Shown: positions 4,280-23,300 of the stretch, in pieces
Position numbering within the stretch: position 1 is the first letter of the stretch
Layout: the number at the start of each line of letters is the position of its first letter
Assembly (NCBI RefSeq): GCF_023130475.1
Contig: NZ_JAKHEX010000001.1
Coordinates: forward strand, 186,001 to 250,000
Direction of reading: 5' to 3'
Length of the DNA stretch: 64,000 bases
DNA from: Aciditerrimonas ferrireducens
GTDB taxonomy: Bacteria; Actinomycetota; Acidimicrobiia; Acidimicrobiales; UBA8190
Notes under the pieces: model-generated
What the model was told of the DNA's origin: nothing
Seen by the model: only the letters and a program-made list of their open reading frames with translations
Databases searched by the model: none
Program-made: the position numbers and the translations under genes

Positions 4280-5218
4280 ATGAGCGCGTCGCTGCTCTAC
4301 GCCTTCAGCCTGGGGCTGGTAGCCGCTTTGAACCCCTGCGGCTTCCCGCTGCTCCCCGCCTACCTGACCGGGTTCGTGGACGGTGGGGCCGGCGGGACCT
4401 GGACGGCCCGAACCGGCCGGGCCCTGGCCGCCGGGGCGGCGGTGACCCTGGGTTTCCTGGCGGTCCTCCTGCCCCTCGGAGCCCTGGTCGCCGGGGGGGT
4501 CCACGTGGTGCTGGGCTGGGTGCCCTGGGCCATGATCCCCTTCGGCCTGCTGCTCGTGGCCGTCGGGGCCCTGACCGCCGCGGGCCGGCCCCTCAAGGTG
4601 ACCGTGCCGGTGGTGCCGGTCGGCCGGGCCCGGGGCCGGTGGTCCCAGATGGTGCTCTTCGGGGTTGCCTACGCCGTGGCCTCCCTCTCCTGCGCCTTGC
4701 CGGTGTTCGTGGCCGGGGTGACCGGCACGGTGGCCCAGCGGGGCGTGGCCCAGGGGGTGGCCGACTTCCTGGCCTACGCCCTCGGCATGGGCCTGCTGCT
4801 GGCGGTCGCCGCGTTGGTGGTGGCCCACCTGGGTGCCCCGACCCTGCGGCGGGTCCGGCGGCTCGGGCCCCTGCTGCAGCGGCTGGTGGGGGTGGTGCTG
4901 GTGGCGGTCGGCGCCTACCTCGTCTACTACTGGGCGAGCTTCGAGGCCGACGGGCGGACCGTGCCGGGGCTGGTCCGGGCGGTCGAGCGGGTCCAGTCGA
5001 CCCTAGTGGCCTGGCTCTCGGGGGCGGTCCGGCCGGTGGGGGCCGGGCTCGTGGTGCTGGTGGCCCTGGCCCTCTTGGCCCTCCTCGTGCGGGGTGGCTC
5101 AGCCCGCCAGACCGAACCAGCGATCCCGGTGCGGGAAGAGGTAGCGGTCGGTGACCGTGGCCAGCACCCGGCGGGCGTCGTCGAAGCGGTCGGCCACGGT
5201 GGCGAGGACCCGCAGTGA
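4280..5218 (+). CDS. ccdA: CcdA/DsbD-type thiol-disulfide membrane transporter
   Basis: 312-residue polytopic membrane protein that would pass reducing equivalents from the cytoplasm to outer thiol proteins, as in cytochrome c maturation. The two redox cysteines are in the expected first and fourth membrane segments: LNPCGFPLLPAYLTG and VASLSCALPVFVAGV. About seven to eight hydrophobic segments are visible, the last being LVVLVALALLALLV. The final 40 residues are hydrophilic, unlike the family, and are antisense to the 3' end of the convergent gene, so the stop may have drifted. No ResB, CcsA or thioredoxin partner is adjacent. ATG 4280 follows GGGGAGGGGCGCGGGGCG. Confidence 0.85.
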   Translation: MSASLLYAFSLGLVAALNPCGFPLLPAYLTGFVDGGAGGTWTARTGRALAAGAAVTLGFLAVLLPLGALVAGGVHVVLGWVPWAMIPFGLLLVAVGALTAAGRPLKVTVPVVPVGRARGRWSQMVLFGVAYAVASLSCALPVFVAGVTGTVAQRGVAQGVADFLAYALGMGLLLAVAALVVAHLGAPTLRRVRRLGPLLQRLVGVVLVAVGAYLVYYWASFEADGRTVPGLVRAVERVQSTLVAWLSGAVRPVGAGLVVLVALALLALLVRGGSARQTEPAIPVREEVAVGDRGQHPAGVVEAVGHGGEDPQ

Positions 5219-6088
5219 GCGGGTGAGGGGCTCCGGCACGCTCGCCAGGGCCGCCCGGTAGGCGCGGCGGCCGATCTCCTCGAGGAGGGCCACGGCGCTG
5301 GCGTCGCCCATGCCCGGCAGGCCGGCCAAGGTGGGGGCGTTGGCGGTGTCGCCGAGCCGGGCTCCGGTCAGGCGGGCCAGGCGCTCGGCGTCGAGGGGCG
5401 AGAAGCCCCGGCGGGCGACGGCGTCGGGGAAGACCCCGGTGGAGAAGAGGGCCAGGTCGCCGAGGCGTCTGAGCACCCCGGGACGCTCAGCCGGCGGGGC
5501 CAGGGCCACGAGCTCGGCCATCCGCACCGGGTCGAGCTCGGAGAAGCGGCGGCGGCGGAGGCCCCGGCGGGTGGCCACCCAGACGGCGCCACTGGCGACG
5601 TGGGTGTAGGACGCCAGGAGCTCGGCCAAGAAGAGTCGGTGGGCGGGGTCGGCCAGGAGCTGACGGAGGGGCTCGACATCGAAGACCGGGGCACGGTGGC
5701 GGGGGCCCAGCCATTCCCAGGTGAAGCTGGCCCGTTGGAGGCTCTGCGCCACCTGCTCGAGGGCCACCGCGAAGACCGCGAAGGGCGAGCAGGCAGCGAA
5801 AGGCTCGGCCCCGAGGGGCAGGGCCTGGCCGGGGGGGTCGCCAGGGCGCGACGCCGGCGGACCGTCCTCGGGCGTAGCCGGCTGGGGACCGAGGACCAGC
5901 TGGGCGAGCGAGGGGTCCCCGAGGGCCTCGAGGAGCCGCCTGGGTTCCTGACGCAGGACCCGGCGGAGGCTGCCGACGTCCTTCGACCCGGTCCCGGCCA
6001 GGGCTCGGGTCTCGGCCAGCAGGGCCAGGTCGGCGTCCGTCAGGTGCTGGAGGTACCCCTCGACGACGCTGCGGAGCGGCACGTCCAT
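5099..6088 (-). CDS. Unrecognised 329-residue protein
   Basis: I do not recognise a family. The protein is soluble, rich in Leu, Ala and Arg, and mostly helical in appearance. A variable Pro/Gly linker (about residues 70-92) divides a short N-terminal helical part from a longer conserved-looking part containing FTWEWLGPRHRAPVFDVEPL, YTHVASGAVWVATRRGLRRR, a segment LPGMGDASAVALLEEIG that resembles a Gly-rich turn, and the C-terminus VTDRYLFPHRDRWFGLAG. There is no signal peptide. A TACCCT box ends 7 bases before the ATG, suggesting a leaderless message. Its last 120 bases overlap ccdA in antisense. Reading-frame length and GC-biased third positions support it being coding. Confidence 0.7.
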   Translation of the reverse strand: MDVPLRSVVEGYLQHLTDADLALLAETRALAGTGSKDVGSLRRVLRQEPRRLLEALGDPSLAQLVLGPQPATPEDGPPASRPGDPPGQALPLGAEPFAACSPFAVFAVALEQVAQSLQRASFTWEWLGPRHRAPVFDVEPLRQLLADPAHRLFLAELLASYTHVASGAVWVATRRGLRRRRFSELDPVRMAELVALAPPAERPGVLRRLGDLALFSTGVFPDAVARRGFSPLDAERLARLTGARLGDTANAPTLAGLPGMGDASAVALLEEIGRRAYRAALASVPEPLTRSLRVLATVADRFDDARRVLATVTDRYLFPHRDRWFGLAG

Positions 6089-6136: not shown

Positions 6137-8404
6137 TCAGGGGCTGTTCGAAGCCAGGTGGGTGCTGGTGCTCGAGGTGGTGCTGGTGCTCGAGGTGGTG
6201 CTGGTGCTCGAGGTGGTGCTGGTGCTCAAGGTGGTGCTGGTGCTCAAGGTGGTGCTGGTGCTCAAGGTGGTGCTGGTGCTCGAGGTGGTGCTGGTGCTCG
6301 AGGTGGTGCTGGTGCTCGAGGTGGTGCTGGTGCTCGAGGTGGTGCTGGTGCTCGAGGTGGTGCTGGTGCTCAAGGTGGTCGAAACGTCGGAAGCGACGCC
6401 AGAGGATTGGTTCTGGACGAACACGATCGTGAGCCGAGCGGTGTTGGCCGGTTCTCGAAGGCTCAGTTGGGCGACAAATGACGGGCTGAGATCCCAGGGC
6501 AAAGAAGGCTGCCCGGTCACGAACGTACCCCCGACTTGGACGACAGAGCCTCGGAACAGGAACGTTCCTTGGAGAGCAGGGGTACCGGGTTCACTAGGAG
6601 GGGTTGTCGAATCGTTCCCGACGGTCCCAACCAGGGTCCCAACAAGCTGGACGACGTCGCCATCGGGTCCAGTGAGGTCGACCGCCAAGAGACCGCCTCC
6701 CTGGCGAAAGCACGTTCCTGCGTCGACGATTAGCGTATTGCTTACTGCACTCAAAGTCGGTGAGGTGCCGAACCAGCCGACAGTCGAGAACGTCGGTTGG
6801 GTGCCGACCGACGTGAGATTGGCCGGGGTGGTCTGCACCCACTCGTCGAGTTCGCCGGATTGGATCGCCGGTGTGACCGTTGGGGTGGTGGCGAGGGTGA
6901 ATCCGGGGACGTCACCGCAGCGACCCGGAGGCAGAGCGTCTGACGTCGCCCTGCCCCCGGTCTCGGGTGCCGGAGGAGCAGTGGTCCCGGATCCGGCCGA
7001 AGCAGCCGATGCGCTCGTTCCCGAGGTCGTTGTGTCCGCGACTTGGCGTTCCCCGGCTGTGGCCTGGTGGGCCCGAAGGCCGTTGGCCTGGTTGCTTGAC
7101 CCGAGGGTCTGGGCGGTCGACGGTGACGTCGTGGAATTAGTGCCGGTCCCTTCGGCAGCAAGCAGAACCCACGCTGGTGCATCGCTGAGCCACTGAGTCG
7201 ACGAGCTGGCCAGAGCGCTCCCGCTTGCGGACGACGACTGTTGTCCTCCCGAGGGCGATCCCGGGGAGATCAGGGGATTGTCATTCGGTGATGGGTTCCC
7301 CGACGACGAGCTGCCTGGCGAGGGCGGTGTGGCGTGCAGCGAAGGGTCCTCGGATCCAGTGACCACAGGCCGTGACGACACTGGTGCTCGAGATCCCTCG
7401 GTAGAGCGAGCGGGCCGTGCCGGGCGTGCGGGCATGACGAGGACGGAGGCCGAGGCAAGGGTTGCGGCGAGTCCGACCAGCAAGGAGCCCTTCCCCGGGG
7501 TTGCGGCCGAGAGGGCGCCGACTGCGGACTGCACAGTCGGCGAGGCCATGACCTGGGCAATGAACGGTGACCAGCCTGCACTGGCGTTCGAGGCGATCGG
7601 AGCTGCGGTGCCGACCAGTGAAGCTTGTCCCCCACCAACGCATGAGGCCGACTGCGCCACGACATGTCCCGCTACTACGGACGAGCGGCCTCCAGGACTC
7701 CCACCGGGGCACCCGCTCGGGGGTCGGTGAAGCAGGTGGAGCGCTCGCAGAAGCAGACCGCCTGCTCGGCGTGGCGCTGTCAGAACGAGCGTTCCGAGGG
7801 CTCCGACATGACCGAGTCGACGACGCAGGTTGTTCCGGGCTCGTTGCACCCTCGTACGGGCGTTGTCCTCCGAGATGCCGAGTCGGTTGGCGATGGCACG
7901 GTACGAGAGGTCATCGAGCGCTCTCAGTTGGAAGGCCAGCCGCTGGGCTTCCGGCAGGGTCGCGAGCGCCTCGCGAACCATCGCCAGCTTGACCGGGTCG
8001 CCAACGGACTCGCTGGGGTCGGTGAGGGAAGCGGGTTGATCGAGAAGAGAATGATTTGTGCTCCACGAGGTGTTCCTTGCGCGCTGCATGGCCATGTCGT
8101 TGCAGACGTGGACCAGAATTCGGTGCAGCCATGCGCCAAGGCGCCACGTGCCGTCCTGGCCGAAGTGATCGAGGGCCCGGAGAGCGCGGAGAAAGGTTTC
8201 CTGGACAGCGTCCTCGGCTTCCTCGCGCCCAAGGAGAAGGCGCCGGGCCTGGTGGTAGAGACTGCTGTAGTGCCGTCGAACCAGGTCTCCCAGAGCAGAG
8301 GGGTCTCCAGCTCGATGGGCTTCGATGAGCAGTCGATCAGCGAGGTCTGGGTCGTCGGCGTCGTTGCGACCGGCCTGACCGGTTGGACTCGCAATGAGGA
8401 CCAT
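6137..8404 (-). CDS. Sigma factor fused to a membrane segment and a large extracytoplasmic domain
   Basis: 755 residues. Residues about 37-108 are sigma region 2 (AEDAVQETFLRALRALDHFG, WLHRILVHVCNDMAM); residues about 145-198 are region 4 (LPEAQRLAFQLRALDDLSY, ANRLGISEDNARTRVQRAR). After a linker a hydrophobic stretch at about 307-325 (LLVGLAATLASASVLVM) can cross the membrane. Residues 330-520 are Ser/Thr/Pro-rich; about 520-665 look beta-rich (LLAVDLTGPDGDVVQLVG, GTFLFRGSVVQVGGTFV); the end is a 12-fold TTSSTS/TTLSTS repeat. If correct, the sigma domain is tethered to the membrane and could sense an outside signal directly, perhaps through proteolytic release. ATG 8404 follows GGAGAGCGGCGAGC. 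Codon use is less GC-biased than in flanking genes. Some ECF groups are known to carry membrane C-termini; this outer domain I do not recognise. Confidence 0.85.
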   Translation of the reverse strand: MVLIASPTGQAGRNDADDPDLADRLLIEAHRAGDPSALGDLVRRHYSSLYHQARRLLLGREEAEDAVQETFLRALRALDHFGQDGTWRLGAWLHRILVHVCNDMAMQRARNTSWSTNHSLLDQPASLTDPSESVGDPVKLAMVREALATLPEAQRLAFQLRALDDLSYRAIANRLGISEDNARTRVQRARNNLRRRLGHVGALGTLVLTAPRRAGGLLLRALHLLHRPPSGCPGGSPGGRSSVVAGHVVAQSASCVGGGQASLVGTAAPIASNASAGWSPFIAQVMASPTVQSAVGALSAATPGKGSLLVGLAATLASASVLVMPARPARPARSTEGSRAPVSSRPVVTGSEDPSLHATPPSPGSSSSGNPSPNDNPLISPGSPSGGQQSSSASGSALASSSTQWLSDAPAWVLLAAEGTGTNSTTSPSTAQTLGSSNQANGLRAHQATAGERQVADTTTSGTSASAASAGSGTTAPPAPETGGRATSDALPPGRCGDVPGFTLATTPTVTPAIQSGELDEWVQTTPANLTSVGTQPTFSTVGWFGTSPTLSAVSNTLIVDAGTCFRQGGGLLAVDLTGPDGDVVQLVGTLVGTVGNDSTTPPSEPGTPALQGTFLFRGSVVQVGGTFVTGQPSLPWDLSPSFVAQLSLREPANTARLTIVFVQNQSSGVASDVSTTLSTSTTSSTSTTSSTSTTSSTSTTSSTSTTSSTSTTLSTSTTLSTSTTLSTSTTSSTSTTSSTSTTSSTSTHLASNSP
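6161..6376. repeat. 12 tandem copies of an 18-base coding repeat
   Basis: Twelve uninterrupted 18-base units with period GGTGCTGGTGCTCGAGGT on the plus strand. On the minus strand they encode STTSST or STTLST hexapeptides at the C-terminus of the sigma-fusion protein. Variation is a single base (CGA to CAA) that swaps Ser for Leu; units 4-6 and 12 (from the left) carry Leu. No stop occurs in any frame, so antisense frames here look falsely open. Confidence 0.95.
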
Positions 8405-23167: not shown

Positions 23168-23204
23168 GCAGCCGGCCGGGCCCCGGGCCTCGGGTCGGCT
23201 CCCA

Positions 23205-23300
23205 GCCCACCGGATCGGCAGCCCACCGGATCGGCAGCCCACCGGATCGGCAGCCCACCGGATCGGCAGCCCACCAGATCGGCGGCCTACCGGATCGGCG
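23205..23300. repeat. Six tandem 16-base repeats before citrate synthase
   Basis: Units of GCCCACCGGATCGGCA repeat six times at 16-base steps (23205, 23221, 23237, 23253, 23269, 23285). The first four are identical; the last two differ by one and two or three bases. Each contains CCGGATCGG, nearly self-complementary. No spacers, so not a CRISPR. The array ends 11 bases before the TAGGAT box of gltA. Confidence 0.9.

Follow-up and report, generated by a model that had tools for sequence, protein, structure and literature searches.

A membrane-fused ECF sigma factor with an unmatched outer domain and a candidate wall-binding protein target in the Acidimicrobiales

Can a sigma factor, its membrane anchor and a surface domain be carried by one polypeptide, and what might such a protein control? 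The question is raised by a gene in a 64,000-nucleotide stretch of the Aciditerrimonas ferrireducens genome (contig NZ_JAKHEX010000001.1, positions 186,001 to 250,000), referred to here in its entirety as the window. An earlier note, made from the DNA letters alone, had described one uninterrupted frame encoding sigma regions 2 and 4, a hydrophobic helix, a Ser/Thr/Pro region, an unfamiliar outer domain and a repeat stalk, and had suggested that the sigma factor is tethered to the membrane.

The uninterrupted frame was confirmed (Table 1), and the ATG at 8404 is supported as its start by relatives that share it (MAIAP...). Both sigma regions were recovered by Pfam, and the protein scored 93.7 bits against the sigma70-ECF model TIGR02937 (cut-off 42.9). 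The two regions are separated by a short gap and regions 1 and 3 are lacking, as is characteristic of ECF (group 4) sigma factors. Beyond residue 200 the window protein had no Pfam match. The helix is the sole strong hydrophobic segment (Kyte-Doolittle mean 2.0) and the low-complexity region after it is 44% Ser/Thr/Pro, so that the earlier description of these parts also holds. In the relatives the segment before the helix reads QVATSPxAQ..., with a single Lys/Arg abutting the helix, which is itself Ala-rich. Three Arg within residues 327-333, directly after the helix, are contrary to the positive-inside rule and are peculiar to the window protein. Further along the linker a Trp-containing motif resembles, by eye, the SWVVLA-type motifs of relatives. 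The window protein and its relatives have neither an LPxTG sorting motif nor an HxxxCxxC zinc-finger motif.

Table 1. Parts of the membrane-fused sigma factor and their positions in the window.
Feature	Residues	Position	Strand	Basis
Whole CDS, membrane-fused ECF sigma factor	755 aa	6137..8404	-	single open frame; relatives with same start, order of parts and end
Sigma region 2	41-110	8075..8284	-	Pfam PF04542, E 2.2e-13
Sigma region 4	142-192	7829..7981	-	Pfam PF08281, E 1e-14; independently found in genome search
Conserved pre-helix segment	278-307	7484..7573	-	alignment of relatives
Membrane helix	308-326	7427..7483	-	hydropathy peak, in the window protein and every relative not cut short
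Ser/Thr/Pro-rich linker	327-495	6920..7426	-	composition
Linker motif SDAPAWVLLAAEG	407-419	7148-7186	-	by-eye comparison with relatives
Outer domain (Cys 496 and 565)	about 496-666	6407..6919	-	profiles A1/A2
Ser/Thr tail	665-755	6140..6412	-	composition, 82% Ser/Thr
Tandem repeat within tail		6156..6379	-	Tandem Repeats Finder

Evidence that the fusion is genuine came from its relatives. A contig search with the window protein returned only unrelated Thalassospira sigma factors, and a search of 60 related genomes recovered full-length relatives in several genera. When the outer domain was turned into a profile (A1) and run against 298 genomes of the order, matches were obtained in eight genomes (G000, the window's own, and G003, G013, G008, G009, G024, G065 and G176) and in seven of 171 genera; a class-wide search added one weak partial match (G452). 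Every outer-domain match not cut by a contig end has a sigma domain in frame with it, and each fusion has a membrane helix between the two. A further genome, G015, has its sigma part on one contig and its outer domain on another, and both are truncated at a contig end. The long Ser/Thr/Pro linker and the tandem repeat are hard to assemble and could be taken to favour an assembly or frameshift artefact. The same fusion is nevertheless present in seven other genomes, which belong to six other genera and represent four of the order's families. A chimeric assembly was rejected on this ground, and we regard an artefact of any such kind as vanishingly unlikely. Homologues in which sigma factor and outer domain are consistently separate genes were not found in this collection, which consists mostly of incomplete assemblies.

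In a tree built with the other ECF sigma factors of the same genome and its relatives, the sigma domains of the fusions form one clade (support 98/96) together with two sister proteins from G029 in which the outer part is different or cut off. One of these sisters (locus L033, 3894-5693, minus strand, on contig G029:C47) has a helix and another outer domain without the two cysteines described below, and adjoins a gene for a CWB2 protein; its outer module may be the product of a swap or of divergence. The frames found in G013 (contig C81) and G003 (contig C3) encode an identical 724-aa sigma protein beside the same CWB2 gene, while the two genomes are assigned to different genera, an identity due to contamination or to very recent transfer. 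A second ECF clade with a helix was also observed, comprising two proteins of the window's own genome (G000:C43:59500-61600 and G000:C15:19300-21200; L095 and L096) and their relatives L013 and L016, all with a long Ser/Gly/Thr-rich C-terminal extension after the helix. Tethered sigma factors have arisen at least twice in these bacteria.

The outer domain had been placed at about residues 330-665. A conserved domain does exist, but it extends only over about residues 496-664, since 327-495 is low-complexity linker. The statement that it matches nothing recognisable stood up at the level of sequence: the domain, of approximately 170 aa, has no match in Pfam, NCBIfam or PDB sequences. Two cysteines, 63-70 residues apart, are kept in all eight outer-domain sequences, which fits an oxidising location outside the cell, and the domain is probably held by one disulfide. 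A single-sequence AlphaFold model had a mean pLDDT of 35.5, too poor for use, and its strands give no more than a hint of a beta fold.

It was the repeat stalk that did not survive comparison. The tandem repeat comprises 12.4 copies of an 18 bp unit with 98% match, each unit encoding STSTTS or STSTTL hexapeptides, and lies within a tail formed by the last 91 residues of the protein. The repeats are C-terminal to the outer domain and are optional: the tails of relatives range from 8 to 144 residues, are Ser/Thr/Gly/Pro-rich throughout and are built on differing repeat units, and in one relative (L044) the tail is nearly absent. The repeats were therefore rejected as a stalk and are a distal tail; the real stalk is the Ser/Thr/Pro linker that precedes the outer domain. 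The near-identity of the copies at the DNA level points to recent tandem expansion or slippage in a fast-evolving tail, and copy number is probably variable. Elsewhere in the window, at 23203-23299, there is another tandem array (16-bp unit, 6.1 copies, 95% match), the unit length of which is not a multiple of three.

A candidate for the gene controlled by the fusion was provided by its neighbourhood. With neighbouring genes called from codon composition and Pfam rather than by a gene finder, the sigma gene was found directly beside a CWB2 gene in G013/G003, G009 (at two loci), G015, G008 and G176, and the sister-type sigma gene of G029 is placed in the same way; the pairs are mostly divergent in orientation. 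The partner is a large secreted protein of approximately 930 aa with CWB2 repeats, which are wall-binding and S-layer-like. Matches to PF04122 had E values of 1e-19 to 7e-32 in five partners and 2e-4 in a sixth, cut by a contig end. Homology extends beyond the CWB2 repeats, as the L034 partner is 44-46% identical over some 890 residues to the single CWB2 protein that the window genome encodes. CWB2 is encoded in eight of eight outer-domain genomes, whereas among all 298 genomes 42 encode it (hypergeometric 8e-8, or 6e-7 after merging G013 and G003, the two genomes with identical sequence), figures made optimistic by kinship among the genomes. Of the genomes sampled from the family to which the window belongs, five have both outer domain and CWB2 and six have neither. 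Among the titles and abstracts of the open papers surveyed, none was found that links a fused sigma factor to a CWB2 protein.

The pairing is not universal. In G000 and G065 the partner CWB2 gene is on a different contig from the sigma gene, and the G024 contigs are too short for linkage to be judged. A single CWB2 gene was recovered from the window's genome (locus L047, 6772-9969, minus strand, on contig G000:C42), and its coding frame is interrupted by a stop codon close to the start and by a frameshift close to the end. Genuine decay or an error in the sequence may account for this damage, and the sigma/CWB2 pair of this genome may accordingly be decaying or mis-sequenced. Downstream of the window sigma gene, at 5099-6088 on the minus strand, a 329-aa frame begins 49 bases after the sigma stop codon and could be co-transcribed with it; it has no Pfam match and was not seen beside the sigma genes of the relatives.

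The regions upstream of the partner genes share a two-box, promoter-like element, [CT]GTCAC-N17/18-GTT, located about 90-180 nt before the estimated CWB2 start. The element is present upstream of eight of nine partner-type CWB2 genes, the chance of finding it in shuffled sequence being 0.15-1.2% per region for those eight regions. It was absent from all nine paralogous CWB2 genes in the same genomes and present at one of seven CWB2 genes elsewhere. The pattern was derived from six of the partner upstream regions; among the genes examined once it had been fixed, the CWB2 gene of the window's own genome and the unlinked gene of G065 have the element and the gene of G024 does not. The DNA upstream of CWB2 was also considered as a housekeeping -35/-10 promoter, a reading that was dropped because the distance between the boxes, judged by eye, is wrong for it. 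No such element was found upstream of the window sigma gene, which gives no sign of self-activation. The looser form GTCAC-N17/18-GTTG occurs 19 times in the window's genome against 10 in a reversed control, so a regulon is not readable from motif counts.

From these data a model can be proposed in which the protein is an ECF sigma factor tethered by a single membrane pass. Its sigma domain would be cytoplasmic, and the outer domain would stand outside the cell on its Ser/Thr/Pro stalk, followed by the disordered Ser/Thr tail; we hold this topology with high confidence. A change at the surface, most likely in the wall or the CWB2 layer, would be sensed by the outer domain and would free or activate the sigma domain. 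By analogy with IutY and ECF52, the simplest route would be stepwise proteolysis, a step that we put somewhat below even; M50 site-2 proteases are encoded in the fusion genomes, but also in 14 of 14 control genomes. The freed sigma domain would then transcribe the CWB2 gene from the ECF-type promoter [CT]GTCAC-N17/18-GTT, and that CWB2 is its direct target we consider probable. The fusion, the single clade, the conserved architecture, the gene neighbourhood, the co-occurrence and the conserved element are observed. Against the model, the sigma gene of the window is not beside its own CWB2 gene, and that gene reads as damaged. On balance, and narrowly, we believe that the model as a whole, in which a single protein is both surface sensor and sigma factor and drives a wall-binding protein of the surface, is correct. 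A stricter version is rather doubtful: a one-protein feedback device in which the wall or CWB2 layer is monitored directly by the outer domain and its tail, and loss of the layer frees the sigma domain so that the layer gene is transcribed. Were this true, a single polypeptide, built on an unmatched outside domain, would combine sensor, anti-sigma function and sigma factor and serve one surface protein alone.

The same observations can be read in other ways. The tethered sigma factor might answer envelope stress or polysaccharide, like ECF52 (SCO4117), and drive other genes, CWB2 being a neighbour in an envelope island with a promoter read by another regulator. The layout is shared by ECF52 members, whose regulon is broad (PMC5826349), and the unlinked pairs of G000 and G065 are in keeping with this reading. 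Linkage in several genera, co-occurrence and the specificity of the element for partner-type CWB2 genes argue against it, and we think it unlikely. The reading in which the sigma half is no longer active as a sigma factor, and a wall-anchored surface protein retains its sigma-like part on the inner side as an anchor or partner, draws on the fast-evolving tail and on the window genome, where the two genes seem to be unlinked and the CWB2 gene to be damaged. It is very unlikely, since both sigma regions show good conservation throughout the clade and score far above the Pfam cut-offs.

The identity of the element itself opens a further alternative. Its boxes and spacing equal the ECF41 promoter form, TGTCACA-n16-CGTC/TGTT, which has been shown experimentally (PMC3426412), and for this reason another sigma factor could read it. 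The CWB2 element would on that account be the promoter of an ECF41-type (SigJ-like) sigma factor and not of the tethered one. G000 and G003 each encode a near full-length SigX4-type (ECF41-like) sigma factor, with 284 and 313 bits. The other seven fusion genomes have no SigX4 match above 71 bits, and six of these seven carry the element at the partner CWB2 gene; in genomes 82-92% complete a single absence of ECF41 is weak evidence, but a joint absence is not. Since a near full-length SigX4-like sigma factor is present only in G000 and G003 of the nine, ECF41 is not a general explanation, and the reading is improbable.

To our knowledge, the membrane-fused sigma factors of groups ECF48, ECF52 and ECF53 have been named for years while their signals and direct targets have mostly stayed unknown. 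In the clade described here a new outside domain comes together with candidates for the target gene and its promoter, which makes both the signal and the target of a tethered sigma factor directly testable. The clade also suggests a candidate regulator of S-layer-like, wall-binding proteins in bacteria known mostly through genome assemblies; sensing of the cell surface and part of its rebuilding may fall to a single molecule.

Comparison with known systems helps to place the fusion. SCO4117 of Streptomyces coelicolor, an ECF52 member, consists of a sigma factor, a zinc finger, a membrane helix, a Pro-rich stretch and a carbohydrate-binding module, and proteolysis-based release has been proposed for this group (PMC5826349, PMC8999054). 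The protein of the window resembles it in having an N-terminal ECF sigma domain, a membrane helix, a long low-complexity linker and a large outside domain in one chain, and in that no separate anti-sigma gene was seen beside the sigma gene; the helix with Pro-rich extension has its counterpart in the helix and Ser/Thr/Pro linker. It differs in that no zinc finger lies between sigma domain and helix (neither an HxxxCxxC motif nor a Pfam match was found), in that Pfam and NCBIfam sequence searches recognised no carbohydrate-binding module, the outer domain being another one, and in having as partner a CWB2 gene preceded by a promoter-like element of its own. Proteins of groups ECF48 and ECF53 carry a zinc-finger domain and one or two helices, and their C-terminal membrane extension is expected to act as a built-in anti-sigma factor (PMC8999054); a C-terminal membrane extension is shared by the present fusion, whereas the zinc-finger anti-sigma segment is missing from it.

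In IutY of Pseudomonas putida (ECF243) a sigma factor and a membrane-bound regulator are likewise fused in one chain, and activation through cleavage by Prc and RseP has been shown (PMC8999054), a release step that here would be supposed by analogy. IutY works with a siderophore surface receptor, unlike the window gene, near which nothing of that kind was seen. The likeness to ECF41 lies in the promoter form, TGTCAC...GTT/GTC with the same spacing, and in a neighbouring gene as target, a candidate here and in ECF41 the main or only one (PMC3426412). ECF41 proteins have a soluble C-terminal extension and no helix, whereas a membrane helix is present here and no SnoaL-like Pfam match was found; against SigX4 the sigma domains of the fusions reach only about 43-65 bits, over the region 2-4 part alone. 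The clade of L013, L016, L095 and L096 shares the order of ECF sigma domain, hydrophobic helix and Ser/Gly/Thr-rich outer tail, but it is a separate sigma clade and its members do not match the outer-domain profile. As it lacks a zinc finger and any carbohydrate-binding module that could be recognised, the fusion is not filed under ECF52; judged from its sequence, it is a membrane-fused ECF sigma factor of a kind with an unmatched outer domain, set apart from ECF52 by the features described.
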